From: Seonamhaeicola sp.
Lineage (GTDB): Bacteria; Bacteroidota; Bacteroidia; Flavobacteriales; Flavobacteriaceae
Direction of reading: 5' to 3'
Assembly: GCF_028281565.1 (NCBI RefSeq)
Contig: NZ_JANQJQ010000041.1
Coordinates: 124,001 to 188,000, forward strand
Length of the DNA: 64,000 nucleotides
Positions 9,088-52,925 of this stretch are shown here, piece after piece (the first letter of the stretch is position 1; each line of letters opens with the position of its first letter). The notes beneath the pieces were generated by a model. The model was not told the DNA's origin. It searched no databases and worked only from the letters and a program-made list of their open reading frames with translations. Made by a program: the position numbers and the translations under genes.

Positions 9088-9323
9088 ACTCGGGGGAAAT
9101 TCTCTATTATTAAAACTACTTATATCGTTTAGAAAATACTCGAGATGGTTTTATTCCCTCGGCTTGTTGCTCCCTTTTTCTAAGAAAAACTCATTTATGA
9201 TGTAATGCCTAACATATGTGGATAGTTTCTACCTGATAACCTAATACTTTTGGAAAAGAACGAAAACGAAGCTATAAAAAAGTTGAATGACTAACTGAAA
9301 ATATATAATAGAAATTCTGAATT

Positions 9324-10739: not shown

Positions 10740-10752
10740 TTAAAAAAACAAC

Positions 10753-12165: not shown

Positions 12166-12262
12166 CAGAGCTAGAAACTCCCAATTATCAAATTTAAAAT
12201 AGTAATTACGATTACGTTCCACCTGTTTAAAAATGACATTATTTCCAAAAACATAAAAACAA

Positions 12263-25773: not shown

Positions 25774-28053
25774 ATGATAAAAGAATCATTTCATAAAGAA
25801 AAAAGAACTAGTAAAACCGTAACACTGGGATGTGATTTAAGTATTACCGGTGGTGGTACGGCTGGCGTTTGTGCTGCTATTACAGCAGCCAGAAAAGGTA
25901 TTAAAGTGGTATTGATCCAGGACCGCCCCGTTTTAGGAGGGAATGCCTCCTCAGAAGTCAGGTTGTGGATTTTAGGAGCCACTTCCCACATGGGGAATAA
26001 TAACCGATGGTCACGCGAAGGCGGTGTCATGGATGAGATTCTGGTAGAGAATCTGTATAGAAACCCGGAAGGGAACGCCGTTATTTTTGATACTGTTTTA
26101 TTGGAAAAGGTACTAAACGAAGACAATATCACCTTGCTTTTAAATACCAGTGTTTACGACGTTACTAAATCAAGCGATACACAGATTGAATCCGTAAAGG
26201 CCTTTAATTCGCAAAATTCAACAGAATATATTGTAAAAGCACCCTTATTCTGTGATGCTTCCGGTGATGGTATTGTAGCCTTTAAGGCGGGCGCATCCTT
26301 TAGAATGGGGGCAGAACCCAAGGAAGAGTTTGGGGAGTTGTTTGCGCCTGATAAATCTTATGGAGAACTTTTGGGGCACTCCATGTATTTCTACAGTAAA
26401 AATACCGATAAGCCGGTCAAGTTTAAGGCACCGGAGTTTGCTTTAAAGGATATAAAACAAATACCGCGTTATAAGGCCATCGGAAAAGATGACAAAGGGT
26501 GTCGGTTTTGGTGGTTTGAGTATGGCGGGCGGCATGATACCATTCATGATACGGAACATATTAAATACGAGCTATGGAAAGTGATTTATGGCGTTTGGGA
26601 TTACATTAAAAATTCAGGAGAATTTGATGATGTAGATAATATGACTTTAGAATGGGTAGGGACTATCCCGGGAAAACGTGAAAGTCGCCGATTTGAAGGT
26701 TTATATATGATGAAGCAGCAAGATGTGATTGAGCAACAAGCGTTTGATGATGCCATAGCGCATGGTGGATGGGCTATAGATTTACATCCGGCCGATGGTG
26801 TTTACAGCAAACTGTCGGCCTGTACCCAATGGCATTCCAAAGGGGTGTATCAGATTCCGTACCGTTCGTTTGTAAGTAAGGATATTGAGAACTTGTTTTT
26901 AGCCGGTAGAATTATAAGTGCCACACATGTGGCATTTGGTTCAACACGTGTGATGGGCACCACAGGACTATGTGCCCAGGCGGTTGGTATGGCCGCAGCT
27001 TTATGTACTGACAAAAACTTAAAGCCTACAGATATATTGAGCAATGGCACTATTGAAGAACTCCAGAACGAGTTGAATATTGTTGGGCAAAGCATTCCGA
27101 ACATCCCCATAAAACCTGCTTCTAATCTAATCAATCAGGCTGCGGTTGAAGCTTCTTCAACTTTAGAGGTTTCGGAAATTCCTTTTGACGGTGATTGGTT
27201 TAGACTGAACATTTCGGCAGCACAATTATTGCCTTTAAATGCAGATGAAAACTATCGGTTTAAAGTGTTGATAAATGCAGATGAAGCCACTACTTTGGAA
27301 GTGCAATTGCGAACCTCGGAAAAATCAAAAAACTACGCACCGGAGGTTATTTTAGAAACGCAATCGTTTCAATTAGGAAAGGGTGAACAATATATGTCAA
27401 TTGACTTTTCGATTGGTGTGCCGACAAATCAATATGGTTTTGTGACGTTTTTAGCGAACGATAAGGTAAGTTTAAAAACAAGCAATAAGCGTTATACAGG
27501 AGTACTTTCGGTGTTTAATGGTGTAAATAAAGCAGTATCTAATAATGGCAAACAAGTACCGCCACCAAATATTGGGGTGGACGAGTTTGAATTTTGGACG
27601 CCACATAGAAGGCCTGACGGTCAAAATATAGCTATGGAAATTTCACCGGCTATAAAATCTTTTAATAGTGATAATATTGGTAATGGTTATGTTCGCCCCT
27701 GGGGAGCAGTGAATGCCTGGGTAGCCGATTTAAATGATGAAAACCCAACCCTAAAAATAGAATGGGATAAGGCCAAGACTATTTCAGAGATTAAACTGTT
27801 CCTAGACCCGGATTATGACCACCCAATGGAATCTACTTTAATGGGACATCCCGAGGAAGTCGTGCCATTCTGTGTGCGTAATTATGTGATAAGAGATCTA
27901 AGTGGTAAGGTACTTCATCAAGTTGAAGGCAATTATCAAACCATTAATAGTTTTAAGCCAAGTGAACCTTTGAATTTAAAAGGGTTTACCGTTGAATTAG
28001 GACATCCTTCAAAAGATGTTCCGGCGGCTATATTTGAAATAGTATGCAAGTAA
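25774..28053 (+). CDS. FAD-dependent oxidoreductase (FAD_oxidored family) with C-terminal beta-sandwich
   Basis: This 759-residue protein has no signal peptide, unlike most neighbours, so it should be cytoplasmic. An FAD-binding Rossmann motif SITGGGTAGVCAA lies near residues 25-37, with VVLIQDRPVLGGNASSEVRL after it and AGRIISATHVAFGSTRVMGT near 370-390, the C-terminal part of the flavin site. Together these match the FAD_oxidored family. Residues from about 450 form extra beta-rich segments, the last resembling a discoidin-like fold. It overlaps the next gene by 10 nt and follows the symporter by 16 nt, so it belongs to the LacI-controlled operon. It might oxidise an imported sugar or release a modification; the reaction is not known to me. 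Confidence 0.85.
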   Translation: MIKESFHKEKRTSKTVTLGCDLSITGGGTAGVCAAITAARKGIKVVLIQDRPVLGGNASSEVRLWILGATSHMGNNNRWSREGGVMDEILVENLYRNPEGNAVIFDTVLLEKVLNEDNITLLLNTSVYDVTKSSDTQIESVKAFNSQNSTEYIVKAPLFCDASGDGIVAFKAGASFRMGAEPKEEFGELFAPDKSYGELLGHSMYFYSKNTDKPVKFKAPEFALKDIKQIPRYKAIGKDDKGCRFWWFEYGGRHDTIHDTEHIKYELWKVIYGVWDYIKNSGEFDDVDNMTLEWVGTIPGKRESRRFEGLYMMKQQDVIEQQAFDDAIAHGGWAIDLHPADGVYSKLSACTQWHSKGVYQIPYRSFVSKDIENLFLAGRIISATHVAFGSTRVMGTTGLCAQAVGMAAALCTDKNLKPTDILSNGTIEELQNELNIVGQSIPNIPIKPASNLINQAAVEASSTLEVSEIPFDGDWFRLNISAAQLLPLNADENYRFKVLINADEATTLEVQLRTSEKSKNYAPEVILETQSFQLGKGEQYMSIDFSIGVPTNQYGFVTFLANDKVSLKTSNKRYTGVLSVFNGVNKAVSNNGKQVPPPNIGVDEFEFWTPHRRPDGQNIAMEISPAIKSFNSDNIGNGYVRPWGAVNAWVADLNDENPTLKIEWDKAKTISEIKLFLDPDYDHPMESTLMGHPEEVVPFCVRNYVIRDLSGKVLHQVEGNYQTINSFKPSEPLNLKGFTVELGHPSKDVPAAIFEIVCK

Positions 28054-29222
28054 AATGTAAAATATCATTTTTAGTGGTAACTCTTTTTTCTTTTATGGCA
28101 TTAGTGTCATGTAAAGAAAAAAACAAAGAGCAAGTCATAGAAGCACACAAAGAACTAAATCTTGGAGCCATGGTACAACCGGTTTCCGAGAAGCACAAAT
28201 TTATTAGTGAAGACTATCATATATGGGGAGCTTCAGTGGTAAAAGGTGATGATGGAAAATACCATATGTATTATTCCAGATGGGAATATGAATTGGGACA
28301 TATGGGTTGGGTAACAGATTCTGAGATTGCCTATGCGGTGGCAGATAAAGCTGAAGGCCCTTATAAACATGTAAATGTGGCATTGCCTGCTCGTGGGGAA
28401 CAATTCTGGGACGGTACAACCACACATAACCCTAACATCATTAGAAAAAACGGAAGGTATTACCTGTATTACATGGGCTGCACATCTTCTGTTAAAGCTG
28501 TGCAGCCTACTTCAATGAAACATAAGGACTGGTGGATTTATAGAAATAATCAAAGGATTGGAGTGGCATGGTCAGATAATCCTGAAGGGCCGTGGAATAG
28601 ACTTGATGAGCCAGTCATCACTGTAGATGAAGACCCGAATGCTCCGGACGCACTTGTGGTTACTAATCCGGCTGTAAATGTGGGACCTGATGGAAAAATG
28701 TTCGCAGTATACAAAGTGGTAGCTAAAACCGAAGATTGGAAACCTGTAGATATGGAGAGTGATGACACCTGGGTGGTATCAAAGGGGGGGAATGTACGAT
28801 ATATGGCTGCATCTGCTGATAGTCCGCTAGGACCATTCACTAAGTACAAAGAGACCATTTTCGAATTAAAAGGAGAGGAAGAAACACATATGATCGCCGA
28901 AGACCCCTATGTATGGAGTCAGGATGGGAAATACTATGCTTTAGTGACTGATATAAAAGGTTCGTTTACAGGTGATTATGGGGCTATTGCTTTGATGGAA
29001 TCAGATAATGGACATGATTGGGTGCAATCAAAACATCCGATGGTGGTTCCTGGAAAAATTCTGAAAGAAGATGGTACCAGAACGGAGTATAAAATTGAGC
29101 GTCCTCAATTATTGGTAGAAGATGGCAAACCCACTTTCTTATTTGGTGCATTAGGTATAACAGTAGACGGAGTTCACAGAGGGCATGCATGCAACCTTAG
29201 AATTCCACTTAAACAAAATTAA
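28044..29222 (+). CDS. GH43-like five-bladed beta-propeller lipoprotein
   Basis: This 392-residue lipoprotein (lipobox MALVSC) overlaps the FAD gene by 10 nt. It has the repeating blade pattern of the GH43/GH32/GH117/GH130-type propellers: WGASVVKGDDGKYHMYYSRW, THNPNIIRKNGRYYLYYMG, and IAEDPYVWSQDGKYYALVTD. It resembles the proteins at 32406, 33517 and the N-terminal half of 40580, so this family occurs four times in the locus. I cannot match it to a numbered CAZy family, so activity and linkage are open. The acidic residues in the EDP block and the N-terminal aromatic-rich loop are candidate active-site elements. It is anchored by lipid, likely facing the periplasm or the outside. Confidence 0.8.
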   Translation: MQVKCKISFLVVTLFSFMALVSCKEKNKEQVIEAHKELNLGAMVQPVSEKHKFISEDYHIWGASVVKGDDGKYHMYYSRWEYELGHMGWVTDSEIAYAVADKAEGPYKHVNVALPARGEQFWDGTTTHNPNIIRKNGRYYLYYMGCTSSVKAVQPTSMKHKDWWIYRNNQRIGVAWSDNPEGPWNRLDEPVITVDEDPNAPDALVVTNPAVNVGPDGKMFAVYKVVAKTEDWKPVDMESDDTWVVSKGGNVRYMAASADSPLGPFTKYKETIFELKGEEETHMIAEDPYVWSQDGKYYALVTDIKGSFTGDYGAIALMESDNGHDWVQSKHPMVVPGKILKEDGTRTEYKIERPQLLVEDGKPTFLFGALGITVDGVHRGHACNLRIPLKQN

Positions 29223-32405: not shown

Positions 32406-33509
32406 ATGGTAAAAAAAATAATATACCTAATAGTAGTAACCTGTTTTATTTTTTCTTGTGGTAAGGGAAAAAATGAGACTATGGAACCTGTAAAGGACGA
32501 TAATTATAAATTAGAGTTCGATAAAGTAGCCTTAAAATCTAAGTTTGAGAGTGATTCCATAACCATATGGGGTGCTTCAATAATAAAAGGGCAGGATAGC
32601 TTGTACCATATGTTTTATTCAAGATGGAAAAAAGACCTTGGATGGGCATGGGTTACGCATTCCGAAATTGCTCATGCGACATCTAAATCTCCGTTTGGCC
32701 CATTTATTCATAAAGATGTAACTCTTGGAGTCAGAGGTGCTGAATTTTGGGATGGACTTTGCACTCATAACCCAACAGTACATAAATTCGATGGTAAGTA
32801 TTACCTGTACTATATGGGTAACACAGGAGATGGTGTCAACCCGTGTGTACCTGGAAAGATCAAATACAATTGGACACACAGAAACAATCAACGAATTGGT
32901 GTTGCAGTGGCTGATGATCCTAATGGTCCTTGGAAACGTTTCGACACACCATTAATTGATGCGAGTTCTGATGAAAATGCCTTGGATGCTCTGTTGGCTA
33001 ATAATCCTTCCATCACAAAACGTCCGGATGGAGGGTATTTAATGGTGTATAAAGCAGTTGGGAAAAAAATCAAGAAAATTTCAGGAGGGCCGGTAGTACA
33101 TTGTGTAGCTACATCAGATAGTCCAACGGGACCTTTTAAGAAATATGATAAACCCGTATTTACGGCTAAAGGACATGATTTTCCCGCAGAGGACCCTTTT
33201 ATTTGGTATGAAAAAGGCAAGTATAGAGCCATTGTAAAAGATATGCATGGTGCTTTTACTGATGCAGGTCAAGCTTTGGTATTATTTGAATCTGAAGATG
33301 GATTTGATTGGAACTTATCTAAAAACGGTTTAGTCTCTAAACTGGAAATAAATTGGGAAGACGGGACTACGCAGAAGGTAGACCATTTAGAAAGGCCCCA
33401 GTTATATATAGAAAATGGAAAACCAATAGCACTTTTATGTGCTTCGGATGTTAAAGATGAAAAAGGTGTATTGCATGCTTTTAATGTTCAAATACCTATT
33501 AAAAATTAA
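32406..33509 (+). CDS. GH43-like five-bladed beta-propeller lipoprotein (second copy)
   Basis: This 367-residue lipoprotein (lipobox IFSC) is a paralogue of 28044 and is even closer to 33517. Shared blocks are WGASIIKGQDSLYHMFYSRW, GAEFWDGLCTHNPTV, YYLYYMGNTGDG, HRNNQRIGVAVADDPNGPW and PAEDPFIWYEKGKYRAIVKD. It lies 23 nt after the GH2 gene and 7 nt before the next copy. Tandem duplication with divergence suggests each copy handles a different substituent on one backbone. The enzymatic family is uncertain; the five-bladed propeller fold is well supported by the repeated Y-x-x-Y/F and D-G-K-Y patterns. Confidence 0.8.
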   Translation: MVKKIIYLIVVTCFIFSCGKGKNETMEPVKDDNYKLEFDKVALKSKFESDSITIWGASIIKGQDSLYHMFYSRWKKDLGWAWVTHSEIAHATSKSPFGPFIHKDVTLGVRGAEFWDGLCTHNPTVHKFDGKYYLYYMGNTGDGVNPCVPGKIKYNWTHRNNQRIGVAVADDPNGPWKRFDTPLIDASSDENALDALLANNPSITKRPDGGYLMVYKAVGKKIKKISGGPVVHCVATSDSPTGPFKKYDKPVFTAKGHDFPAEDPFIWYEKGKYRAIVKDMHGAFTDAGQALVLFESEDGFDWNLSKNGLVSKLEINWEDGTTQKVDHLERPQLYIENGKPIALLCASDVKDEKGVLHAFNVQIPIKN

Positions 33510-33516
33510 TATAAAT

Positions 33517-34647
33517 ATGTTAAAAATAAAACAGCTTATAGGCTTAGTGGTCATTGCACTTGTTATTGGTGCCTGTGGAAAAAAAGAAAACAAACAGGAC
33601 CCAAAAAAGAAAGCGGTTATTGATTATAAAATTGAGTTTGAGAAGGTCGCTCCCCAATCGGTATTTGTTAATGATACCATGAGTATTTGGGGTGGCTCTT
33701 TGGTAAAAGGGGAAGATAATCTGTACCATATGTTTTATTCCATTTGGCCCAAAAAAATTGGCTGGGAGTGGGTGAATTACTCCATAATTGCCCATGCAAC
33801 ATCAGAGTCACCATTCGGTCCTTTTAAGTATAAAGACGATGCGCTTCCGGACAGAGGTCCTGAATTTTGGGATGGTTCAACCACACATAATCCAACGGTT
33901 CATAAATTCAATGGTAAGTACTACCTATATTATATGGGCAATACAGGTGATAAAAAAATAGTAAGTGCCCCCGGTAAACAAAAGATAAATTGGGTGCATA
34001 GAAACAACCAGCGTATTGGTGTGGCGGTTGCTGATAGTCCAAACGGCCCGTGGAAACGTTTTGATAAACCTGTTCTGAATATCACTGAAAATGATTCACT
34101 GGCACATGATGCTTTAATGACCTCCAATCCATCCGTTTGTCAAATGGCAGATGGAAAGATCTTGATGGTATATAAAGCTGTAGGGAAAAAGTTTCCTTTG
34201 CCACAAGGCGGGCCCGTGGTGCACATGGTGGCCATTGCAGACTCTCCAACAGGGCCCTTTAAAAAGTATCCGGATCCCGTTTTTACATTTGAAGGGGAGC
34301 GTTTTCCCGCTGAAGACCCTTATATCTGGTACCAGGAAGGGAAATACCGTGCTATTGTGAAACGCATTAAGCACGAGGGTAAAAAACGTGTATTTTCTTT
34401 GGTGCATTATGATTCTGAGGACGGCATCAATTGGAACCAGGCCAAACATTTTGAAATATCAGATAAAACAGTAACCTGGGAAGATGGTTCAACCACTAAA
34501 TTTAATCATTTGGAACGTCCGCAGGTTTTTATTGAAAACGGAGAACCGGTGGCACTTTTATGTGCTGCGGATACTATTGATGCGAATAATGTACGGCATT
34601 CGTATAATATTCAAATTCCATTAAAAATTACAAAACACAAAAACTAA
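33517..34647 (+). CDS. GH43-like five-bladed beta-propeller lipoprotein (third copy)
   Basis: The open frame extends upstream to 33439 inside the previous gene, but the ATG at 33517 precedes a proper lipoprotein signal (LVVIALVIGACG), so I start there; 376 residues. It parallels 32406 block by block: WGGSLVKGEDNLYHMFYS, GPEFWDGSTTHNPTVHKF, YYLYYMGNTGD, HRNNQRIGVAVADSPNGPW and PAEDPYIWYQEGKYRAIVK. The two genes are 7 nt apart and clearly arose by tandem duplication. It is followed by a GH2 gene after 5 nt. The role is presumably removal of a terminal sugar from the galactan; no family number can be given. Confidence 0.8.
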   Translation: MLKIKQLIGLVVIALVIGACGKKENKQDPKKKAVIDYKIEFEKVAPQSVFVNDTMSIWGGSLVKGEDNLYHMFYSIWPKKIGWEWVNYSIIAHATSESPFGPFKYKDDALPDRGPEFWDGSTTHNPTVHKFNGKYYLYYMGNTGDKKIVSAPGKQKINWVHRNNQRIGVAVADSPNGPWKRFDKPVLNITENDSLAHDALMTSNPSVCQMADGKILMVYKAVGKKFPLPQGGPVVHMVAIADSPTGPFKKYPDPVFTFEGERFPAEDPYIWYQEGKYRAIVKRIKHEGKKRVFSLVHYDSEDGINWNQAKHFEISDKTVTWEDGSTTKFNHLERPQVFIENGEPVALLCAADTIDANNVRHSYNIQIPLKITKHKN

Positions 34648-36374: not shown

Positions 36375-37609
36375 AAGGCATACATATTGTTTACGCTTTA
36401 ATTTTTCTGATATCAGGCACAATCACCGCCCAATTACCAGAAGTAGTTAAGGAGCATTATAAATTGGTTTGGGAAGATCAATTTGATTATCCCGATAAAA
36501 AACTTGATAAACAATGGGCGTCTCAAAACGGACCAAGTGGACATATACTTTGTAGTCGCTGGAGAGAAAATGTTGTTGTTAAAAATGGCCTGCTATACCT
36601 TGTAAACAAAAAGGAAAAACGTGCCGGTCAGGAGTGGACCTCAGGAAGCATCTGGACTAAAAAGAGATTCAAATACGGTTATTTTGAATGTCGTTATAAG
36701 TACGCTGGTGCTGAGGCTACCAATAATTCTTTTTGGTTAATGACTAAAGGAGGCGGGCAACCAGAAGAAGGAAAACGCTTTGAGATTGATATTAACGAAG
36801 GTCATTATCCAAATGAAGTCAATACCAATATTCACAATTGGTCTGATATCACTATAACAAAAGATGGGAAAAGAAAGCATCCTTCTAGTCATAAAGGGTT
36901 TGCTTATGGAGCCAAAAGTGGTTATTCTATTCAGTTAGAAATTCCGGTGAACACTAAAAAGATTCGATTCCAATCAAATAATAATGGGCGCTTTCATTTA
37001 GGAGAGTTCAGGGTATATGGTTTAAATGACGGAAATTACCCCGATGTGCTTTCTAAAACTGCTGATAGAGATATTCCAAATCTGAAAAATTTAGCAGCTT
37101 TTAAAGATGTAACAATAACGTCTAGTGGTTCGTATAAAAATAATAATTCGGAAAAAAACCTGATTGATGGTAATCCGAAATCCCGATGGAATACACAAGA
37201 TGAAGGGAATAAATGGTTGAAGTTTGAGTGGAAAGATGACATTACCATTGGTTGTATTCAATTTTTAAACGGTTGGCAATCTGCAAATGGTGACTGGCAT
37301 GATTTAATTAAAGATTATAAAATTCAATATTTAGATGATGGTGAATGGAAGGATATTTCCGTTTTAAACGTAACTGATAGTTATGATTTTGCAAACAAGT
37401 TTCATACGTATGGTTTATTATGGAACGAAAAGGAGATTGTATTTTACTTTGACGGCGAAGAAATCAGAAGAGAAAAAAATGAGTTTTGTTTCAGTGAAAC
37501 GCCAATTTGGTTGAGTTTAGCCATTATAAAATGGGCAGGTCCCGTAAAAGATAATATTGATGGGACCAGTATGCAAGTAGATTATGTTAAATATTACCAG
37601 AAAAAATAA
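36362..37609 (+). CDS. GH16-family endo-glycanase with nested discoidin-like domain
   Basis: This 415-residue protein has a signal peptide ending near ITAQ. Residues about 31-180 are the first half of a GH16 jelly roll: LVWEDQFDY, SGSIWTKKRFKYGYFECRYKY, and the catalytic block E141-I-D-I-N-E146. The fold then stops, and residues about 180-345 read as discoidin (F5/8 type C) material. This is a fragment ending in LGEFRVYG followed by a nearly full copy with NLIDGNPKSRWNT and WLKFEWKDD. GH16 resumes at FHTYGLLWNEKEIVFYFDGEEIR (348-369) and ends with the family's last strand. It overlaps the upstream GH2 gene by 13 nt. It should cut a beta-linked galactan internally; the insert may bind it. Confidence 0.87.
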   Translation: MARLKGIHIVYALIFLISGTITAQLPEVVKEHYKLVWEDQFDYPDKKLDKQWASQNGPSGHILCSRWRENVVVKNGLLYLVNKKEKRAGQEWTSGSIWTKKRFKYGYFECRYKYAGAEATNNSFWLMTKGGGQPEEGKRFEIDINEGHYPNEVNTNIHNWSDITITKDGKRKHPSSHKGFAYGAKSGYSIQLEIPVNTKKIRFQSNNNGRFHLGEFRVYGLNDGNYPDVLSKTADRDIPNLKNLAAFKDVTITSSGSYKNNNSEKNLIDGNPKSRWNTQDEGNKWLKFEWKDDITIGCIQFLNGWQSANGDWHDLIKDYKIQYLDDGEWKDISVLNVTDSYDFANKFHTYGLLWNEKEIVFYFDGEEIRREKNEFCFSETPIWLSLAIIKWAGPVKDNIDGTSMQVDYVKYYQKK

Positions 37610-37622
37610 ATAGATAATCAGG

Positions 37623-38909
37623 ATGAAAAAATTACTGTTACCATTGCTTTTAATTGGTTTGGTTAGTTGCCAAAAGCAATCAAAAGAAGAAACTATAAAA
37701 AATAGCAACCAGGGAGCATTTCCTTATACCATAACGGATAGCACTAAAAATCGAAAATTGAGTGCTGCTATGGATAGAAGTTTTAATCATTACAGCGCTA
37801 TCCATCCACGTAATAACGAATTGTATTCTCAGTTTAAATATACAGCGTTAAAGGGATTTGATTACAATGATCACGATGGCACTATTTCAAGAAGAGACCC
37901 ATCGAAAGTGATTTTTGAAAACGGAAAATACTACGTTTGGTACACAAAAAGAGATACGCCGGTAATTCCTGTGGGAGCAAGAAATGCCGATAAAAGTAAT
38001 GATACTATTCCATCTACAGATTGGGATTTAGCAGAAATTTGGTATGCTACCAGTGAAGATGGCTTTACCTGGGAAGAACAAGGCGTGGCAGTTCCAAGGC
38101 CTCCAAAACCTGAAGTAGGCTGGCGGGCCGTAACCACAACAGATATTTTAAAATGGAAAGGGAAGTACTATCTCTATTATCAAGGCTTTATGGAAGCCAG
38201 TGGAAAGCGAGGAGACTATTGTCCCGTAACCGCATCCTGGGCAGATTCCCCTGACGGTCCATGGACACCGGCCGGAAAGATTGTCATTGAAAACGGACCT
38301 GAAGGTTCCTGGGATCAATATGCTATTCACGATCCTTATCCTTTAGTGCATGATGGTAAAATTTATATTTACTATAAGTCAGCTTTCAATAGGCCAAACC
38401 CAGTTTGGGTTGGTGGTGGGCTTGTTATAGGAGATGATCCTTTAGGGCCTTTTGAAAAGCACCCTTTAAATCCTTTAACCAGCTCCGGTCATGAAGTGAG
38501 TTTATTTCCGTTTAAAGAGGGCGTGGCCGCTATCACTGTCAAAGACGGCACAGAACATTTTACCATTCAATATGCTAAAGATTGGGTGAATTTTGAAATT
38601 GCTTCGGTTTGTGAATTAGTACCAATTGCTCCCGGACCTTATGTACCGGATGCTTTTACAGATACTAAAGATGGCCGTGGTATTACCTGGGGCATGTCCC
38701 ATTTTGTAAATGCCGGGAAATATGGCGTGAATCCGCACTCCATCCTCGTACGTTTCGATTGTGATTTGAGTTTGGATGTGGATGACCCGGATATGAAACA
38801 CACCGGTATCCGTCACGATTTGGATGTCTATTATAAACAAGGCCTTAACAAAAAGCAACGTAAGCGCATTGCAGAGCAGAATAAAAAATTAAAGGAGTCA
38901 GGTAGCTAA
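37623..38909 (+). CDS. GH117-family alpha-3,6-anhydro-galactosidase-like lipoprotein
   Basis: This 428-residue lipoprotein (lipobox LVSC) has the GH117 pattern known from neoagarobiose hydrolases: ISRRDPSKVIFENGKYYVWYTKR, AEIWYATSEDGFTWEEQG, IHDPYPLVHDGKIYIYYK, and NPLTSSGHEVSLFPF. The three acidic residues of the family's active site appear in RRDP, HDP and SGHE. GH117 enzymes are five-bladed propellers that release 3,6-anhydro-alpha-L-galactose from the non-reducing end of agar oligosaccharides. It lies 13 nt after the GH16 gene. Paralogues are at 39052, 51609 and in the C-terminal half of 40580. Exact specificity within the family is not visible. Confidence 0.9.
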   Translation: MKKLLLPLLLIGLVSCQKQSKEETIKNSNQGAFPYTITDSTKNRKLSAAMDRSFNHYSAIHPRNNELYSQFKYTALKGFDYNDHDGTISRRDPSKVIFENGKYYVWYTKRDTPVIPVGARNADKSNDTIPSTDWDLAEIWYATSEDGFTWEEQGVAVPRPPKPEVGWRAVTTTDILKWKGKYYLYYQGFMEASGKRGDYCPVTASWADSPDGPWTPAGKIVIENGPEGSWDQYAIHDPYPLVHDGKIYIYYKSAFNRPNPVWVGGGLVIGDDPLGPFEKHPLNPLTSSGHEVSLFPFKEGVAAITVKDGTEHFTIQYAKDWVNFEIASVCELVPIAPGPYVPDAFTDTKDGRGITWGMSHFVNAGKYGVNPHSILVRFDCDLSLDVDDPDMKHTGIRHDLDVYYKQGLNKKQRKRIAEQNKKLKESGS

Positions 38910-39051: not shown

Positions 39052-40332
39052 ATGAAGTTTAAAACATTCATCTGTGTTAGTCTGGCACTAGGTTTCGTAT
39101 GGTCATGTAAACAGGCTGAACCCAAAGAACAAAAAGAAATAATTGCTAACCAGGTGTTTCCCCATAAAATGCCAGAGGAAAAACCCAATTTTCCAATAAG
39201 CTCAGCTGCTGAAAGGATGTTTGACTATCCAGCACCAAGAGTACAGGATAATGAATTGTTTTCGCAATTCAAATACACGCGTTTAGAAGGATTGGATTAT
39301 AATGGCGGTGATGGCACCATTACCCGTCGGGATCCGTCCCGTCCTGTTTTTGTCAATGGCAAATACTATATGTGGTATACCAAAAGGCATACTAAGGTGC
39401 CACCAATTGGTTGGAACCGGGCGGACGAAGCCACAGATGAAATCCCATCAACCGATTGGGATTTATGTGACCTCTGGTATGCCACCAGTGAAGACGGCTT
39501 TACATGGGAAGAACAAGGTGTAGCAGTTGCCAGGCCAGGAAAGCCTGCTTTAGGCTGGCGATCTGTGGCAACCCCCGATATTCTGGTTTGGAAAGGAAAG
39601 TACTATCTCTATTTCCAAGCCTTTAATGAACCTAGTGGAACCCGTGGGGATTGGTGCCCTATATCCATGGCTTACGCCGATTCACCCGATGGCCCATGGA
39701 CCCATGTTGGAAAAATAGTGGTGCCGTTCGGGAAAAAAGGGGAATGGGATCAGGATCAAACCCAGGATCCCCATCCTATAGTTTATAATGGAAAAATCTA
39801 TCTGTATTATAAAGCTGCCTATAACAAATGGCCGGATGTTAGGGATAAATACGCCGTTGCTCATGGTTTAGCCATTGCCGAAGATCCCTTTGGCCCCTTT
39901 GAAAAACATCCTTTAAATCCGGTATTGAACTCAGGGCACGAGACTACCTATTTTCCATTTAAGGAGGGTATTGCTGCCCTGGCTATTAAAGATGGCAATG
40001 AAGCACAAACCATGCAATATGCCGAAGATGGCGTGAATTTTAAAATTGCTTCCACAGTAGAGTTAACGCCAACGGCCTGCGGTTTTTACACCCCCGATGC
40101 CTTTACAGGAACAAAAGACGGAAGAGGGGTTACCTGGGGTGTTTGCCATTTTATAAATGCCGCGAATTCGAAAGATAAAAAGCATTCTATAATAGCACGT
40201 GTAGATTGTGATTTAAGTCTAGATGTACACGAACCATGGCTGAAAAGTACCGGGGTTTGGCACCGACCGGAAGTTTATTTTAAACAAGGACTGGGGAACT
40301 TAAAAGCGAAACGCAAAGGATTACCTGAATAA
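39052..40332 (+). CDS. GH117-family alpha-3,6-anhydro-galactosidase-like lipoprotein
   Basis: The frame is open from 38962, but that start lies in repeat-derived sequence. The ATG at 39052 gives a lipoprotein signal (LALGFVWSC), so the protein has 426 residues. It has TITRRDPSRPVFVNGKYYMW, LCDLWYATSEDGFTWEEQG, TQDPHPIVYNGKIYLYYK and LNSGHETTYFPF, so all three family acidic residues are present; the usual HDP is QDP. It is a paralogue of 37623. The 142-nt gap with a palindromic repeat may mark a weak transcription boundary or RNA-processing site. It is followed by a pseudogene fragment. Confidence 0.9.
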   Translation: MKFKTFICVSLALGFVWSCKQAEPKEQKEIIANQVFPHKMPEEKPNFPISSAAERMFDYPAPRVQDNELFSQFKYTRLEGLDYNGGDGTITRRDPSRPVFVNGKYYMWYTKRHTKVPPIGWNRADEATDEIPSTDWDLCDLWYATSEDGFTWEEQGVAVARPGKPALGWRSVATPDILVWKGKYYLYFQAFNEPSGTRGDWCPISMAYADSPDGPWTHVGKIVVPFGKKGEWDQDQTQDPHPIVYNGKIYLYYKAAYNKWPDVRDKYAVAHGLAIAEDPFGPFEKHPLNPVLNSGHETTYFPFKEGIAALAIKDGNEAQTMQYAEDGVNFKIASTVELTPTACGFYTPDAFTGTKDGRGVTWGVCHFINAANSKDKKHSIIARVDCDLSLDVHEPWLKSTGVWHRPEVYFKQGLGNLKAKRKGLPE

Positions 40333-40579: not shown

Positions 40580-42958
40580 ATGAAATTTAAATTAATTACA
40601 TGTTTTGTGTTCCTGATGGTCGGATTGAACTATTCACGAGCACAGGAAGATTTTAATTTTGCCGAACTACTCCCAGAAAAGTTCGATAAAGCAAATATTA
40701 TTGAAGAAGCAGATTATAATGTCTGGGGAACCAACATTCTAAAAGGAAGGGATGGGAAATACCATGCTATTTATTCGCGTTGGCCAAAATCCAGAGGCCA
40801 TCACGGTTGGGTAACACATTCTGAAATTGCCCACGCCGTATCTGAAAATCTAACGGGACCTTATAAATTTAAAAATGTGGTGTTGCCAGCTAGAGGAAAT
40901 GAATTTTGGGATGGGGAATGCACCCATAATCCACACGTACTTGAGCAGGATGGAAAGTATTATTTATACCATATGGGTAACCGAGGAAGTGGTTATTGGG
41001 ATACTACTCCAGATGACCAAATGCCTTCTATAAAAAACGATTTTGAATGGTGGGTGAATAGGAATAACCAACGTGTAGGTGTTGCGGTAACTGATGACCT
41101 GAATGGCGAATGGCAACGATTTGATAAACCTTTAATTGATGTTAAAGAAGGGCAATTAATGACTTCTACACCAACCATCACGCGTAGAAACGATGGGAGA
41201 TATCTTTTAGCTTACAAATATGTTACAAAAGATGAGAATCCTCCGGCTAATAAAATGCTTCGAAAAGGAAATGAGACCATACAAAAAGGGAAAAGAGTAA
41301 TTCATGTCACTGCTACCTCACGGTCGCCTTTGGGACCATTTGAGGATACCAATATTCCTTTTATAACACATCCAACCGCGTCTTTCGCTATTGATGACCA
41401 CGTTGAATGGGTTTTCAATGGGAATTACTATTGTTTGGCCAAAGATTCCCGTGGTGCATGGAGCGATTATCCGGAAGGATCTACAATGTTGTTTGAAGGT
41501 GATGATATGGGCTTTGATTGGAAACCTGCCAAGAACTTTTTGGTCATAAAAGCAGGTAAAATTGAATGGACCGATGGTACCGTTACAAAAACACAACGGA
41601 CTGCCGATATGCCAAAATTCTATATGGAAGACGGCATTCCAAAAGCACTGATTATAGCTATACTTCCGAAAGACAGTGAAGATTCGTATGCTTTGGTAAT
41701 TCCATTAAAAACGCCAAAACCCGGAACAAAAGCCTTTCCATATCAGGTCACTGAGTACTCAGATGATTATAAGTTGAGTGCGGCCTTAGACCGAAGTTTT
41801 AATCAGTACCCATCACATGTCAATGCAGAGAACGAATTATATAGTCAGTTTAAGTATACCAAATTAACCGGATTGGATTATAATGATGGGGATGCCACGG
41901 TTACAAGACGTGATCCTTCCAAGGTTTTATTTGAAAATGGTAAATACTACGTTTGGTACACCAAGCGTGAAACGCCTATTCCGCCCGTAGGGACCTTTTC
42001 TAAAGATTATAAAGTCATGGAAACCGAAGGCGATAAGATCATTTGGAATGACACCATTCCAACAACCGATTGGGATTTGGGAGAAGTATGGTATGCCACA
42101 AGTAACGATGGCTTTCATTGGGAAGAACAAGGGGTAGCCGTAACAAGACCGGAATATCCAACACCGGGTTGGCGGGCTGTAGCTACTCCCGATATCCTAA
42201 AGTTTAAAGGTAAATACTATTTATACTATCAGGCCTTTACGGAACCCAGTGGTGTAAGAGGTGATTATTGTCCGGTAGGGGTAGCTTATGCCGATAATAT
42301 TAACGGACCCTGGACTCATGTGAATGACGTGGTCATTCCAACAGGAGCCAAAGGGGAGTGGGATCAGTTTGCCATACAAGCGCCGACGCCTTTGGTGCAT
42401 GACGGTAAAATTTATGTGTATTATAAAGCAGCCTTTAACAGACCGGGAACGGTTTGGAGTGGTATTGGGTTGGCCATTGCTGATGATCCCTTAGGCCCGT
42501 TTAAAAAACATGAGCTAAATCCGGTACAAAATTCGGGGCATGAGATTTGTTTCTTTCCGTGGAAGGAAGGCGTAGCCTCTTTGACCATTCGTGATGGCTC
42601 TGAGCATTTCACCATCCAATATGCCAAAGATTGGGTGAATTTCGATGTCATGGCCATTACAGAGTTTATGCCAACAGGGCCTAACGCCTATATTCCCGAT
42701 GCCTTTTCAGATAATAATAACGGACGCGGTATCACCTGGGGTATTGGACATTTTATAAATTTCAAAGGGAAAAACAGTAAGAGGTGGCATTCAGAACTGT
42801 ATCGCTTTGATTGCGATCTTAGCTTAGATGTGCACGATCCTGAAATGAAGTACCACAATTATCGCTTAGATCCCCAGTTCTATTTTAATTTAGGGTTAAG
42901 TGATAAACAAAAGCAACGCATTAAGGCTCAAAACGAAAAACTTCAAAACAATGAATAG
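40580..42958 (+). CDS. Fusion of a GH43-like propeller and a GH117-like propeller
   Basis: This 792-residue protein has a signal peptide ending near SRAQ. Residues about 25-385 match the GH43-like propellers at 28044, 32406 and 33517 (WGTNILKGRDGKYHAIYSRW, CTHNPHVLEQDGKYYLYHMG). Residues about 395-792 match the GH117 proteins (VTRRDPSKVLFENGKYYVWY, WYATSNDGFHWEEQG, NSGHEICFFPW). The families are encoded separately elsewhere in the locus, so this is a true domain fusion. Two changes stand out. The GH117 HDP block reads Q600-A601-P602, removing one of three conserved acids, and the N-terminal EDP block reads DDH. The product may be bifunctional, narrowed to one activity, or a binding protein. 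The next sulfatase overlaps its end by 8 nt. Confidence 0.88.
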   Translation: MKFKLITCFVFLMVGLNYSRAQEDFNFAELLPEKFDKANIIEEADYNVWGTNILKGRDGKYHAIYSRWPKSRGHHGWVTHSEIAHAVSENLTGPYKFKNVVLPARGNEFWDGECTHNPHVLEQDGKYYLYHMGNRGSGYWDTTPDDQMPSIKNDFEWWVNRNNQRVGVAVTDDLNGEWQRFDKPLIDVKEGQLMTSTPTITRRNDGRYLLAYKYVTKDENPPANKMLRKGNETIQKGKRVIHVTATSRSPLGPFEDTNIPFITHPTASFAIDDHVEWVFNGNYYCLAKDSRGAWSDYPEGSTMLFEGDDMGFDWKPAKNFLVIKAGKIEWTDGTVTKTQRTADMPKFYMEDGIPKALIIAILPKDSEDSYALVIPLKTPKPGTKAFPYQVTEYSDDYKLSAALDRSFNQYPSHVNAENELYSQFKYTKLTGLDYNDGDATVTRRDPSKVLFENGKYYVWYTKRETPIPPVGTFSKDYKVMETEGDKIIWNDTIPTTDWDLGEVWYATSNDGFHWEEQGVAVTRPEYPTPGWRAVATPDILKFKGKYYLYYQAFTEPSGVRGDYCPVGVAYADNINGPWTHVNDVVIPTGAKGEWDQFAIQAPTPLVHDGKIYVYYKAAFNRPGTVWSGIGLAIADDPLGPFKKHELNPVQNSGHEICFFPWKEGVASLTIRDGSEHFTIQYAKDWVNFDVMAITEFMPTGPNAYIPDAFSDNNNGRGITWGIGHFINFKGKNSKRWHSELYRFDCDLSLDVHDPEMKYHNYRLDPQFYFNLGLSDKQKQRIKAQNEKLQNNE

Positions 42959-44417
42959 CATAATGAAATGTTTTTTATTCAGTTTATCAATGATTTTTTT
43001 ATTTGGCTGTAAAGAAGTCAAAGAAGAAAAACCTGCAGAACCGTTAAACATTCTTTGGATCAATGCTGACGATTTGGGAAGGGAATTAGCATGTTATGGC
43101 AACCCTGATATAAAAACACCGCATATTGATAAGTTAGCCCAACAAGGGACCTTATACGCCAATGCCTATGCCAATGCGCCCATATGTTCATCCAGTAGGT
43201 CTTCGCAAATTACAGGAATGTATCCTACAACAATTAATTGTTTAGATCACAGGACCATTAATATGACCGAACTGCCGGATGGGATTAAACCCATAACGGA
43301 ATACTTTAAGGAAGCGGGCTATTTTATTTCTAATGGAAGTGGTAGGGACTACCTAAAAAAAGGTGGTAAACGGGACTATAACTTTATACCGGACATTAAA
43401 TACCCGGCCAAGGATTGGAGCGAACGCGCCGAAGGACAACCGTTCTTTGCCCAGGTACAGATTAAATATCCGCACAGGGTTTTCGAAGGACATGAGCAAA
43501 ACCCGATTAATCCTGAAACGGTTACACTGCCGGGATGCTACCCGGATCATCCTTTATTAAAAGCCGATTGGGCCTTATATTTAGAATCCGTTCAAAAATG
43601 TGACGACATAGTGGGCTGGGTGATGAAACGCTTAGAAGATGAAGGTTTAGCCAATAATACCGCTGTTTTCTTTTTTGGAGACCATGGGCGTCCGCATTTA
43701 AGGGATAAGCAGTTCTTGTATGAAGGTGGACTTCAAATTCCTTTGATCGTTAGATATCCTAAGCATGTGGAAACCGGCAAAATTGATAAACGTTTGGTGA
43801 GTTTAGTGGATGTGGCAGCTACGAGTTTAAAACTGGCTGGTGTAGAATCAAAACATAACCTGCATGGCAAGGTATTTATTGGTGAGGAACAGGAAAACAG
43901 GGATTATGTTTTCGGATTCCGCCAACGAGCAGGGGATGCGCCAGACGCCATAAGGAGTATCACCGATGGCCGTTATAAATTGATCTGGAATCAGGAACCC
44001 GAAAGGCCCTGGATGCAATTATCAAGCTATAAACGCAGTGAATATCCTGCTTTTACGGTTTATAGAGTACTCCATAAAAATGGTGAATTGGCGGCACCAT
44101 ACAACCAATTTATGGCCGATAGCAGACCGGAGTTTGAGTTCTTCGATTTAGAGGAAGATCCAAACGAATTCAATAATCTGGCTAACAATGAGGACTATCA
44201 AGAACACTTTAACAGATTGAAATCAGTCCTTCAAACGAATTTAAAGGCTTATGATAAAAACAGAATTCCTGAGTCTGAAGCAACCATTCAAAAAGGAAAA
44301 GATGGATCGCAAAACTACTTTAAAAAGAAGATGAAAAAACTCGGATTGCCAGAAGCACCTTCGGATGAAGAACTGCTGGAATACTGGAATAAGACGTTAT
44401 TGGGTAAAATAAAATAG
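42951..44417 (+). CDS. S1-family sulfatase lipoprotein with C-S-S-S-R site
   Basis: The frame is open from 42900, but the ATG at 42951 (or 42963) gives a good lipoprotein signal (FLFSLSMIFLFGC, Cys20). With 42951 it has 488 residues and overlaps the preceding fusion gene by 8 nt. The INADDLGRELACYG metal site and the GDHGR block are present. The modified-Cys motif is C79-S-S-S-R, with Ser at position three where Pro or Ala is usual. The GKWH block is replaced by GSGRDYLKKGGKRDY. This set resembles the S1 branch close to N-sulfoglucosamine sulfohydrolase, although the substrate here is unknown. It is the last gene of the LacI-side gene train and convergent with the regulator at 44420, only 2 nt apart. 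Confidence 0.88.
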   Translation: MNSIMKCFLFSLSMIFLFGCKEVKEEKPAEPLNILWINADDLGRELACYGNPDIKTPHIDKLAQQGTLYANAYANAPICSSSRSSQITGMYPTTINCLDHRTINMTELPDGIKPITEYFKEAGYFISNGSGRDYLKKGGKRDYNFIPDIKYPAKDWSERAEGQPFFAQVQIKYPHRVFEGHEQNPINPETVTLPGCYPDHPLLKADWALYLESVQKCDDIVGWVMKRLEDEGLANNTAVFFFGDHGRPHLRDKQFLYEGGLQIPLIVRYPKHVETGKIDKRLVSLVDVAATSLKLAGVESKHNLHGKVFIGEEQENRDYVFGFRQRAGDAPDAIRSITDGRYKLIWNQEPERPWMQLSSYKRSEYPAFTVYRVLHKNGELAAPYNQFMADSRPEFEFFDLEEDPNEFNNLANNEDYQEHFNRLKSVLQTNLKAYDKNRIPESEATIQKGKDGSQNYFKKKMKKLGLPEAPSDEELLEYWNKTLLGKIK

Positions 44418-44419
44418 AA

Positions 44420-45568
44420 CTAAAAAGGCACCACCATATTCAGTTTTAAAGACGTATTTGTCCTGTCTTGTCCTTTGACTTCGAATACGGCCGTAAAGTA
44501 GTCATTATCTTTTAGGTAGGTCTCATTAAATTTTCTAATACTATCTTGATTTGTAAAGTATTCAACCGTGGCACTTACGCCAATATCATGCTGCGAAAAA
44601 AACACAAAATGTTCGGCATGATCTACCGGATATTTAGATACCACAGCATATTCGTTGGTAACATCACCTGAATTTAAGTTAAAAATAGTATCCTTTTGAG
44701 TTGGGTGATCCAGTAATTTTAAATTAGTATCCGATATTTCAAAGTAAGGGTTTGCTTCATTAAAAAAATAAAGGAACTGATTATTATTTTTACTGGGGCC
44801 GGCGTACACAGCGAAGCCCTCTTTTATTTCGGAAGTTGATGTTTGCGTTGAGAATCTAACCGAAAAGTTTTTATTATAATCCTGAAAAAACGCCTGGAAT
44901 TTTTGAGTAGATAAGGCAGCCATTCTGGTGGAGTAGGAGTAATTAGCTGGTTTTATGCTATCTCTTAAATTGGGGTTGCTGTCAATAAAATTGTAGAATT
45001 CATCACTACTGTTAATTGAAAAATCACGGGTCCAGCCATTATTTTTGGTAATGGTTTTTCCTGTCATACCAAAATGATCACCTATGTAGAGATTTGTTGG
45101 TGTGTTCTTTAAGAGAAATGATTTCCATAGGTCCGGTTTGGGTTTTGGAATACTCATCTTAACAATGATCAATAGAGAAGCAAATAACAGGGTATAAGGA
45201 AGCACTGTAGTCCACTTGAGTTTTTTAAGAACGGTATGGCCTTGTTCATTCTTATAAAAACTTACCTGATATTGACCTTTGTTTATGGTTAATCGCCATA
45301 GATCACCCTTCCCTTCCGTTTCATAAAACCGGGCAATTTTCTTTCTTAGGTTATGAACGTTGACCCGTACTCTTGGATTGCTTCTGTCGCCGGCATTTTC
45401 ACTTTTAAAAAAGTCGATATCAATAACACTTTCTTTTAGATGGGTGCCTTTTTTTGTCGCTTCATACAAATACTTCAATAAGGCGATACTTGTGGGGGCA
45501 TTTTTAAAAGTATCACTATCGATAATCTTTTGAGTAATTTTATCTTTCTGATATTCAGCTAATTTCAT
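44420..45568 (-). CDS. Membrane-anchored one-component regulator: cytoplasmic DNA-binding-like domain, one TM, periplasmic sensor
   Basis: This 382-residue protein has no signal peptide. Residues 1-105 resemble the N-terminal DNA-binding-like domain found before membrane or adenylate-cyclase/TPR modules in other bacteria, with the pattern SNPRVRVNVHNLRKKIARFY and then WRLTINKGQYQVSF. One hydrophobic helix (about 119-140) follows, then about 240 residues predicted to be periplasmic, which I do not recognise. The layout is like ToxR or CadC: a signal in the periplasm would be passed through the membrane to DNA. It is divergent from the GH2-GH117-GH29-GH16 operon, whose promoter carries three phased direct repeats, so it most likely controls that operon. 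Function is inferred from architecture. Confidence 0.72.
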   Translation of the reverse strand: MKLAEYQKDKITQKIIDSDTFKNAPTSIALLKYLYEATKKGTHLKESVIDIDFFKSENAGDRSNPRVRVNVHNLRKKIARFYETEGKGDLWRLTINKGQYQVSFYKNEQGHTVLKKLKWTTVLPYTLLFASLLIIVKMSIPKPKPDLWKSFLLKNTPTNLYIGDHFGMTGKTITKNNGWTRDFSINSSDEFYNFIDSNPNLRDSIKPANYSYSTRMAALSTQKFQAFFQDYNKNFSVRFSTQTSTSEIKEGFAVYAGPSKNNNQFLYFFNEANPYFEISDTNLKLLDHPTQKDTIFNLNSGDVTNEYAVVSKYPVDHAEHFVFFSQHDIGVSATVEYFTNQDSIRKFNETYLKDNDYFTAVFEVKGQDRTNTSLKLNMVVPF

Positions 45569-51608: not shown

Positions 51609-52925
51609 ATGAAAAAAATTCTATACATCTTAAGTGTGTGCATAATTTTACTATCATGCCAACAAAAAGTAACACCGGAACAAAAAGAAAAAGAAAGTAC
51701 TGAAGAAACCGCTAATGAAGAGTTTCCATTTTTTGTTCCTTCTGAAAAGCCAGACCGTCCGTTGAGCGCTGCCGTAGTGCGTAACTATGACGCTTACGAG
51801 AGTTTACGTCCGGAGCAAACCGAACTGTACACCCAATTTAAATATACCAAACTAAAGGGCTTTGATTACAATGGGGGTGATGGTACAATTACCCGACGCG
51901 ACCCGTCAAAAGTCATTTATGAAAACGGAAAATACTATGTATGGTATACCGGTCGTAAAAGTCCTATAAAGCCTGTTGGGATGTCCCGGGCCAAAGAAGC
52001 TACGGACGTTATCCCCTCATCAGATTGGGATTTAGCCGATATCTGGTACGCCACATCAGAAGATGGTTTTACATGGGAAGAGCAGGGGATCGCCGTACCC
52101 CGTCCACCAAAACCACAACCGGGCTGGCGTTCGGTTACAACCACAGATATCTTAAAGTGGAAAGGTAAATACTATCTATACTTCCAGGCCTTTATGGAGG
52201 CCAGTGGATTACGCGGTGATTTTTGTCCGGTTTCAGTGGCTTATGCCGATTCTCCTGACGGCCCCTGGACACATACCAGAAAAGTCGTTTTGCCTAATGG
52301 GCCGGAAGGATCCTGGGACCAATACTCCATTCATGATCCCTATCCCTTGGTACATGATGGGAAAATCTATCTGTATTATAAAGGCGACTTCGACAAGCGT
52401 CCGGAGTTAAAACCATCAAAAATTAGAATGCAGGGATTAGCTATTGCCGAAGACCCGCTGGGGCCATTTGAAAAGCATCCGTTAAACCCAGTTATCAATT
52501 CAGGCCATGAAACCACCTTGTTCCCTTTTAGAGAAGGGGTGGCGGCTATTGTACAACGGGATGGTCAGGAACACAATACCATTCAATATGCCAAAGACTG
52601 GGTGAATTTTGAAATTGCTTCCATCACCGAATTGATGCCATTAGCAGCAGGGCCTTATGTGCCGGATGCGTTTACAGATACCAAAGACGGCAGAGGGATC
52701 ACCTGGGGGATATCGCATTTTATCAATGCCGATGGCAATTGGAACCATACGGTATTAACGCGCTTTGATTGTGACTTAAGCCTGGATGTCCATGATGATA
52801 ATATGAAAAAACATTACTATACCTATCCTCAGGATTTTTACTATACGGAACACGGTTTGAGTGCGAAGCAAAAGGAACGTATAAAAAAAGAAAACCAAAG
52901 ATTAAAAGAGCAATCAACAAACTAA
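51609..52925 (+). CDS. GH117-family alpha-3,6-anhydro-galactosidase-like lipoprotein
   Basis: This 438-residue lipoprotein (lipobox LLSC) has the full GH117 set: TITRRDPSKVIYENGKYYVW, LADIWYATSEDGFTWEEQG, IHDPYPLVHDGKIYLYYK and INSGHETTLFPF. All three conserved acidic residues are present. It is closest to 37623 in the region around PRPPKPQPGWRSVTTTDILKW. It belongs to the second galactan operon, behind the tandem GH2 genes, and is followed by a GH29 gene after 27 nt. Expected role: release of 3,6-anhydro-galactose from the non-reducing end of oligosaccharides, alternating with GH2 trimming. Confidence 0.9.
   Translation: MKKILYILSVCIILLSCQQKVTPEQKEKESTEETANEEFPFFVPSEKPDRPLSAAVVRNYDAYESLRPEQTELYTQFKYTKLKGFDYNGGDGTITRRDPSKVIYENGKYYVWYTGRKSPIKPVGMSRAKEATDVIPSSDWDLADIWYATSEDGFTWEEQGIAVPRPPKPQPGWRSVTTTDILKWKGKYYLYFQAFMEASGLRGDFCPVSVAYADSPDGPWTHTRKVVLPNGPEGSWDQYSIHDPYPLVHDGKIYLYYKGDFDKRPELKPSKIRMQGLAIAEDPLGPFEKHPLNPVINSGHETTLFPFREGVAAIVQRDGQEHNTIQYAKDWVNFEIASITELMPLAAGPYVPDAFTDTKDGRGITWGISHFINADGNWNHTVLTRFDCDLSLDVHDDNMKKHYYTYPQDFYYTEHGLSAKQKERIKKENQRLKEQSTN

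Follow-up and report, generated by a model that had tools for sequence, protein, structure and literature searches.

The window, by which we mean the whole 64,000-nucleotide stretch of Seonamhaeicola sp. DNA analysed here, carries at positions 40580-42958 of the plus strand an open reading frame of 792 amino acids in which a GH43-like propeller is followed by a GH117 propeller. Its parts are as follows.

40580..40642, plus strand: probable signal peptide, residues ~1-21 (translation read by eye)
40640..41713, plus strand: N-terminal half, GH43-like propeller of the 'DDH' subfamily, residues ~21-378
41393..41401, plus strand: D272-D273-H274, counterpart of EDP in the paralogues; D273 is found in 53/53 rows of alignment A3
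41714..41734, plus strand: short inter-propeller linker, with low pLDDT
41735..42955, plus strand: C-terminal half, GH117 domain, residues 386-792 (sequence and structure matches)
41777..41794, plus strand: S400-R405, fitting the SxAxxR GH117 dimerisation motif (read from the translation)
41906..41917, plus strand: R443-R-D445-P, counterpart of the general base Asp90 (by alignment)
42377..42385, plus strand: Q600-A601-P602 (bases CAA GCG CCG), Ala at the counterpart of the essential Asp245
42533..42544, plus strand: S652-G-H654-E655, counterparts of His302 and Glu303 (by alignment)
42794..42796, plus strand: E739, Glu in all ten fusions (alignment A4)

No lipobox Cys was seen by eye in the fusion, unlike in the single GH117 and GH43-like proteins of the window. 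Each half aligned with proteins encoded separately in the window, the N-terminal half at 36-42% identity with the GH43-like proteins at 28044, 32406 and 33517 and the C-terminal half at 54-61% identity with the GH117 proteins at 37623, 39052 and 51609, which bears out the proposal of an earlier note on this DNA that two families are joined in one open reading frame. The predicted model of the whole protein (pTM 0.56) does not fix how the halves are placed relative to each other. The separately encoded relatives and the adjoining sulfatase gene are listed below.

28044..29222, plus strand: GH43-like EDP paralogue a
32406..33509, plus strand: GH43-like EDP paralogue b
33517..34647, plus strand: GH43-like EDP paralogue c
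37623..38909, plus strand: single GH117 (HDP), grouping with the C-terminal half of the fusion in the 61-row tree
39052..40332, plus strand: single GH117 (QDP)
42954..44417, plus strand: sulfatase just downstream of the fusion
51609..52925, plus strand: single GH117 (HDP)

Up to ~55.6 kb, the window encodes nine sulfatases, GH28, two GH29, five GH2 and two GH16 proteins, together with the three single GH117 and three GH43-like proteins, a LacI regulator, a sodium:solute symporter and an FAD oxidoreductase; from 55943 onwards, genes of the polysaccharide-lyase type appear. Homologues of the downstream sulfatase (57-72% identity) were present in four of the nine other fusion loci (L033, L037, L039 and L040). 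In Lutibacter and Flavobacterium UMI-01, the fusion has GH16, GH2, EDP, GH117 and sulfatase homologues nearby; in Ochrovirga, the EDP genes are missing from this set, and the other fusion loci share fewer. Because this gene content and the shared neighbours fit a sulfated red-algal galactan, the locus is probably a red-algal galactan locus. Rfam gave no match in the window, and promoter- and terminator-like sites occurred there at chance level.

Other genes of the window have unusual features of their own. In the GH16 protein encoded at 36362-37609, an F5/8 type C domain lies between GH16 matches, resembling a binding domain inserted into the catalytic fold; homologues with 63-80% identity were found in 7 of the 14 loci examined. 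The 382-residue protein encoded at 44420-45568 on the minus strand had no Pfam match at E<=1e-5, and a homologue with 49% identity adjoins the Ochrovirga fusion. The gene at 60502-62400 encodes a 6-phosphogluconate dehydrogenase fused to a shikimate kinase-type kinase domain.

Among solved structures, the C-terminal half is closest to Zg3615 (4u6d) and Zg3597 (4u6b) of Zobellia galactanivorans, which aligned to residues 384-784 and 383-769 of the fusion, respectively, and took Foldseek ranks 1-4 at 55-57% identity. The sequence match to 4u6d spanned the propeller (E 3.6e-143). Both are single-domain proteins without the N-terminal propeller, and both read HDP rather than QAP. The alpha-1,3-(3,6-anhydro)-L-galactosidase BpGH117 (4ak5, 4ak6 and 4ak7) has the same fold as the C-terminal half, and its Asp90, His302, Glu303, Asp320 and Lys260 all have counterparts in the fusion. 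According to the accessible part of PMC11574756 (2024), single mutation of Glu303, Asp90, Asp245, Glu167 or His302 inactivates BpGH117; the same part cites work according to which the GH117 site conserves its His, Asp and Glu with only two exceptions. In the numbering of Zobellia Zg4663, the acids are Asp97, Asp252 and Glu310 (accessible part of PMC13118177).

In the fusion, QAP is in register with the HDP or QDP blocks of all three single GH117 proteins of the window and with the HDP of 4u6d, 4u6b and 4ak5. In the 4ak5 chain, the counterpart of A601 was counted two above the published numbering; because this offset was fixed by the mutants 4ak6 (H302E) and 4ak7 (E303Q), the counterpart is Asp245. 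Thus, the alignment to characterised GH117 proteins for which the earlier note had called puts QAP at the position of the HDP Asp and rules out a misalignment, and the loss of a conserved acid that it had described is at a truly equivalent position. D445 stands at the place of the general base Asp90, H654 and D672 at those of His302 and Asp320, and E655 at that of Glu303. At the Glu167 position the fusion has Asp, which is the residue in 74 of 110 GH117 sequences. Residues S400-R405 fit SxAxxR, which is named as a GH117 dimerisation motif in the accessible part of PMC13118177. RRDP and SGHE are intact, as noted earlier, and the domain shows no general decay.

To see how the Asp245 site varies, we collected GH117-like open frames of >=250 amino acids from the loci, excluding matches above E 1e-20. 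Over the resulting 110 distinct sequences, a set that represents part of the GH117 family and whose members are known here by sequence, a profile alignment gave Asp in 100, Ala in 9 and Glu in 1. After contained sequences were removed, the count was again 110 and the result was the same. Ala was found in 9 of the 10 fusions and in none of the 100 non-fused GH117 sequences (99 Asp, 1 Glu), an association that exceeds chance, although it fits one event on the tree. The substitution is therefore not widespread in the set analysed; its presence in many active GH117 enzymes was the finding that the earlier note had named as a threat to its reading. All nine Ala fusions retain the counterparts of D90, H302, E303, D320 and K260.

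The sole Glu belongs to a GH117-like protein (L120:2845-4110) in which four of the seven sites are changed (Y, E, G and E for D90, D245, E303 and D320) and whose motifs read YP for DP, HEP, GGHG and PEG. It is a divergent, possibly inactive paralogue. Two other proteins (L131:1312-3489 and L132:1574-3667) join a GH117-type domain to CBM6 and a Por secretion tail and keep the Asp. A candidate second natural loss, KSP in a GH117 protein of the same genome (L095), came from a local alignment and proved to be a misalignment; the protein reads KVHDP, which phmmer pairs with the Asp.

Following another suggestion of the earlier note, the same two-domain architecture was sought in other genomes. A scan of a genome collection (84,980 species) with the N-terminal-half alignment A1 returned 40 loci, nine of which encode the fusion; because the scan requires exact short peptide seeds, this number is a lower bound. 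The nine loci are from Bacteroidota, one Calditrichota MAG and one member of Verrucomicrobiota and bring the distinct fusions to ten with that of the window.

L031, Saccharicrinis aurantiacus: fusion, QAP
L032, Labilibacter marinus: fusion, QAP
L033, Ochrovirga pacifica: fusion, QAP; same sequence as L002 of genome G180
L034, Calditrichaeota MAG: fusion, QAP; 8.8-kb contig, binning taken as given
L036 and L037, Lutibacter: fusions, QAP
L039, Reichenbachiella versicolor: fusion, QAP
L040, Flavobacterium sp. UMI-01: fusion, QAP
L045, Pelagicoccus mobilis: fusion, QDP (Asp kept)

QAP is thus the reading in nine of the ten fusions, and QDP occurs only in Pelagicoccus, whose protein has the same architecture, DDH and ADMPK in its N-terminal half and most of the fusion-only residues described below. 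In the Pelagicoccus record (L045:9911-12225), the N-terminal half runs across two frames (ORFs 9911-10405 and 10090-12225) and the GH117 half lies in a single open frame. Among 395 genomes of the phylum, the N-terminal half reached E<=1e-90 in its own genome only, and among 397 genomes of the family, the full-length fusion was found in two, its own and G180; the fusion is therefore rare. Viral contigs scanned with the C-terminal half yielded no relative. A literature search of partial coverage returned nothing on point for a GH117 fusion, a two-domain GH117 or the family of the N-terminal half, and none on inactive glycosidase domains.

The earlier note had also pointed to DDH in place of EDP in the N-terminal half. 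The difference is real, but it is not peculiar to the fusion since unfused proteins share it. DDH retains the central Asp of EDP and changes the preceding Glu to Asp and the following Pro to His. All ten fusions and their closer unfused relatives combine DDH with ADMPK (CDMPK in L044), a farther unfused group combines it with EMPK, and the EDP paralogues form a separate group. The blocks of the DDH subfamily, a grouping made here, are DDH, THNP, RNNQR and ADMPK, and all are present in the N-terminal half of the window protein. In A3, which comprises 53 of the 74 N-type sequences then collected, hand-picked for spread, D273 is one of 37 invariant positions, many of them polar. DDH was accordingly rejected as a lesion and is better regarded as a subfamily signature, with the central Asp in 53 of 53 aligned relatives.

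Modelled alone, the N-terminal half had a mean pLDDT of 94.4. Foldseek with this model ranked GH117 structures first by E-value, followed by BT_0996 and, lower, GH159, with TM-scores to the query of 0.56-0.65 and identities of 12-17%. BT_0996 (5mt2) and GH159 (7zei) had TM-scores of 0.65 and 0.59 versus 0.56-0.60 for the GH117 structures, with identities of 12-13% to the N-terminal half, and are not of its family; BT_0996 is presumably of the GH137 type. Sequence searches for a solved relative gave weak matches only, to GH117, GH43 and other propellers. On the predicted model, the fold is a known one and the family placement is not settled. Against Pfam GH43, the N-terminal half alone scored 28.3 bits, below the cut-off of 32.2; the whole protein exceeds it, matching best over residues 501-589 of the C-terminal half. 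Pfam GH130 matched 8 of 53 members of the N-family at E<=0.01, the window protein not among them. In GH43 enzymes, blades 1, 3 and 4 carry the three catalytic acids. In a profile alignment with GH117, made without superposition, the N-terminal half has W-G in blade 1 and T-P in blade 3 where GH117 has Asp, and the EDP group has N-P at the same blade-3 position. Because the usual GH43/GH117 acids of blades 1 and 3 are absent in this alignment, catalysis by the N-terminal half stays putative.

These absences, together with the sub-threshold GH43 score, would suit a protein in which both halves are non-catalytic and which serves as a bivalent periplasmic sugar-binding protein. We consider this unlikely, as the 53 rows of the N-family share 37 invariant positions, often polar ones, and several paralogues occur per locus, both of which fit enzymes better.

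DDH propellers also occur in other combinations. In L044 (Maribellus maritimus, 8840-11047), L047 (a Bacteroidia MAG, 8867-11005) and L053 (a Mariniphaga MAG, 8879-11014), the DDH propeller is joined to a second propeller, as in the fusion, but the partner is an N-terminal EDP GH43-like propeller rather than a C-terminal GH117. DDH genes adjoin EDP genes in L035, L042, L043 and L008. It may thus be usual for the DDH propeller to act together with a second propeller. In Rhodopirellula rubra, a 995-residue protein (L063:8018-11002) combines a sulfatase with an EDP GH43-like propeller. Seonamhaeicola algicola (L043) has an unfused DDH gene, and one of its GH117 proteins is identical over the aligned part to that of G213 (L005), a genome of the same genus as the window.

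In the tree of the C-terminal half, the ten fusions formed one clade (100/100), and the nine Ala sequences stood opposite Pelagicoccus with support of 89/90, below the level that we starred. These relationships suggest that the fusion probably came first and that the Asp was lost once afterwards. A 61-row tree built by a quick method grouped the fusions with the clade of the 37623 gene and L003 (98), and in a 23-row tree the fork of the fusions with the 37623 clade was not resolved. In the tree of the N-terminal half, Pelagicoccus was placed with the Calditrichaeota MAG (93/92). Because Pelagicoccus is placed differently in the two trees, the histories of the halves are not fully congruent.

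Unfused N-type genes of Lutibacter citreus (L038_9937) and Draconibacterium (L035_9895) fell inside the fusion clade (91/97). A tree holding the ten fused N-terminal halves apart from the unfused ones was rejected (p-AU 0.0017), a test that does not separate the two unfused genes. The L. citreus gene lay among the fused Lutibacter sequences (85/86), and the L035 gene sits at an open fork. Where the fusion would be expected, L. citreus has two N-type genes without a GH117 half, next to the same sulfatase family. Given the rejected separation, the single clade of C-terminal halves and the position of L. citreus among fused Lutibacter, the simplest reading would be that, barring recombination, the GH117 half was lost at least once while the N-terminal half stayed.

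Both halves are under purifying selection. Most pairs are saturated at synonymous sites; in the closest fused pair, Lutibacter L036/L037, which is far from saturation, dN/dS was 0.054 for the N-terminal half and 0.060 for the C-terminal half. The nine computable C-terminal pairs, L036/L037 included, gave 0.039-0.091, most of them with high dS. The C-terminal halves of the eight other Ala fusions are 79-87% identical to that of the window.

These data bear on the possibility that QAP reflects recent decay or a sequencing error, for which nothing speaks beyond the change itself. The same Ala occurs in nine distinct sequences from different records, dN/dS is low, and real loss looks different, as in L120 with its four changed sites. 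We rejected this explanation as highly improbable. The retention of the other checked catalytic residues in all nine proteins, combined with dN/dS of ~0.06 in both halves of the L036/L037 pair, indicates that there is no decay, in agreement with the earlier note. Because the same altered fusion has been kept in other bacteria, QAP looks like a lasting change of role.

To find what else distinguishes the fusions, we examined A4, which contains all 34 GH117-type sequences listed at that stage, 24 of them single GH117 rows. The nine Ala fusions agree in F597, A601, T603, S627, G700, N702, E739 and H759, each found in at most 1 of the 24 single rows, and seven of these eight (all but A601) are common to Pelagicoccus. 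Since the Asp-keeping Pelagicoccus has these fusion-only residues, remodelling preceded the loss of the Asp. E739 is the sole acid among them; its position is Glu in the ten fusions only and Ile (22), Val (1) or Phe (1) in the single GH117 rows. In known GH117 structures, the C-terminus of one chain reaches the pocket of its partner, according to the accessible parts of PMC5849685 and PMC11574756, and a residue near the C-terminus could therefore act in the partner's pocket. E739 might compensate in this way for the lost acid.

The main alternative is that the C-terminal half is still an enzyme, but one of changed specificity, in which the Ala makes room for an O-methyl or O-sulfate group on the terminal sugar and the His/Asp dyad and the base, perhaps with another acid, carry out catalysis. 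The other checked catalytic residues kept in nine of nine Ala fusions, the low dN/dS, the invariance of F597, T603, S627, G700, N702, E739 and H759 in the nine and their presence in Pelagicoccus, and the nine sulfatase genes of the window all speak for it. However, the Asp is reported as essential in BpGH117 (accessible part of PMC11574756), and no replacement acid was located in the sequences, E739 being placed by sequence only. Altogether, we regard a changed specificity as a possible but minority explanation. Domain joining is typical of sequential steps, and Pelagicoccus retains the Asp in the same architecture, as would suit a bifunctional protein whose halves hydrolyse two linkages of one oligosaccharide in succession. 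The absence of the essential Asp from nine of the ten fusions makes this improbable.

The earlier note had left a choice between shifted chemistry and conversion to a binding module, and for the GH117 half we judge the latter best supported. Specifically, we see about an even chance that the fusion pairs an active N-terminal propeller with a GH117 half conserved as a pseudo-glycosidase that functions in binding and/or dimerisation. With Ala in place of the Asp245 of BpGH117, the C-terminal half would no longer be a normal 3,6-anhydro-L-galactosidase. Retained as a pseudo-glycosidase with the other checked catalytic residues and the dimerisation motif, it would have a role in binding, dimerisation or both. 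The DDH propeller at the N-terminus, with the positions that are invariant across its family, would be the likely catalytic unit and may act on an end of the same sulfated galactan oligosaccharides. Against the pseudo-enzyme reading, the strong conservation of the C-terminal half, with most catalytic residues kept, is also compatible with an active enzyme whose specificity has changed.

A more specific proposal, which we put forward tentatively, is that one ancestral loss of the acid after the fusion created a pseudo-enzyme that completes the pocket of the active propeller or presents substrate to it, as chains do in GH117 dimers, or else that the Ala admits O-substituted anhydrogalactose. We know of no GH117 that takes O-substituted anhydrogalactose. 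If the pseudo-glycosidase reading is true, the fusion would exemplify the natural conversion of a glycosidase into a helper through a single residue, and the Asp-keeping relative in Pelagicoccus and at least one species that dropped the domain would offer a ready comparison for the role of the Asp245 position. Genomic GH117 counts would then include members unlikely to release anhydrogalactose, and the DDH propeller subfamily would represent a possible new activity in galactan breakdown.
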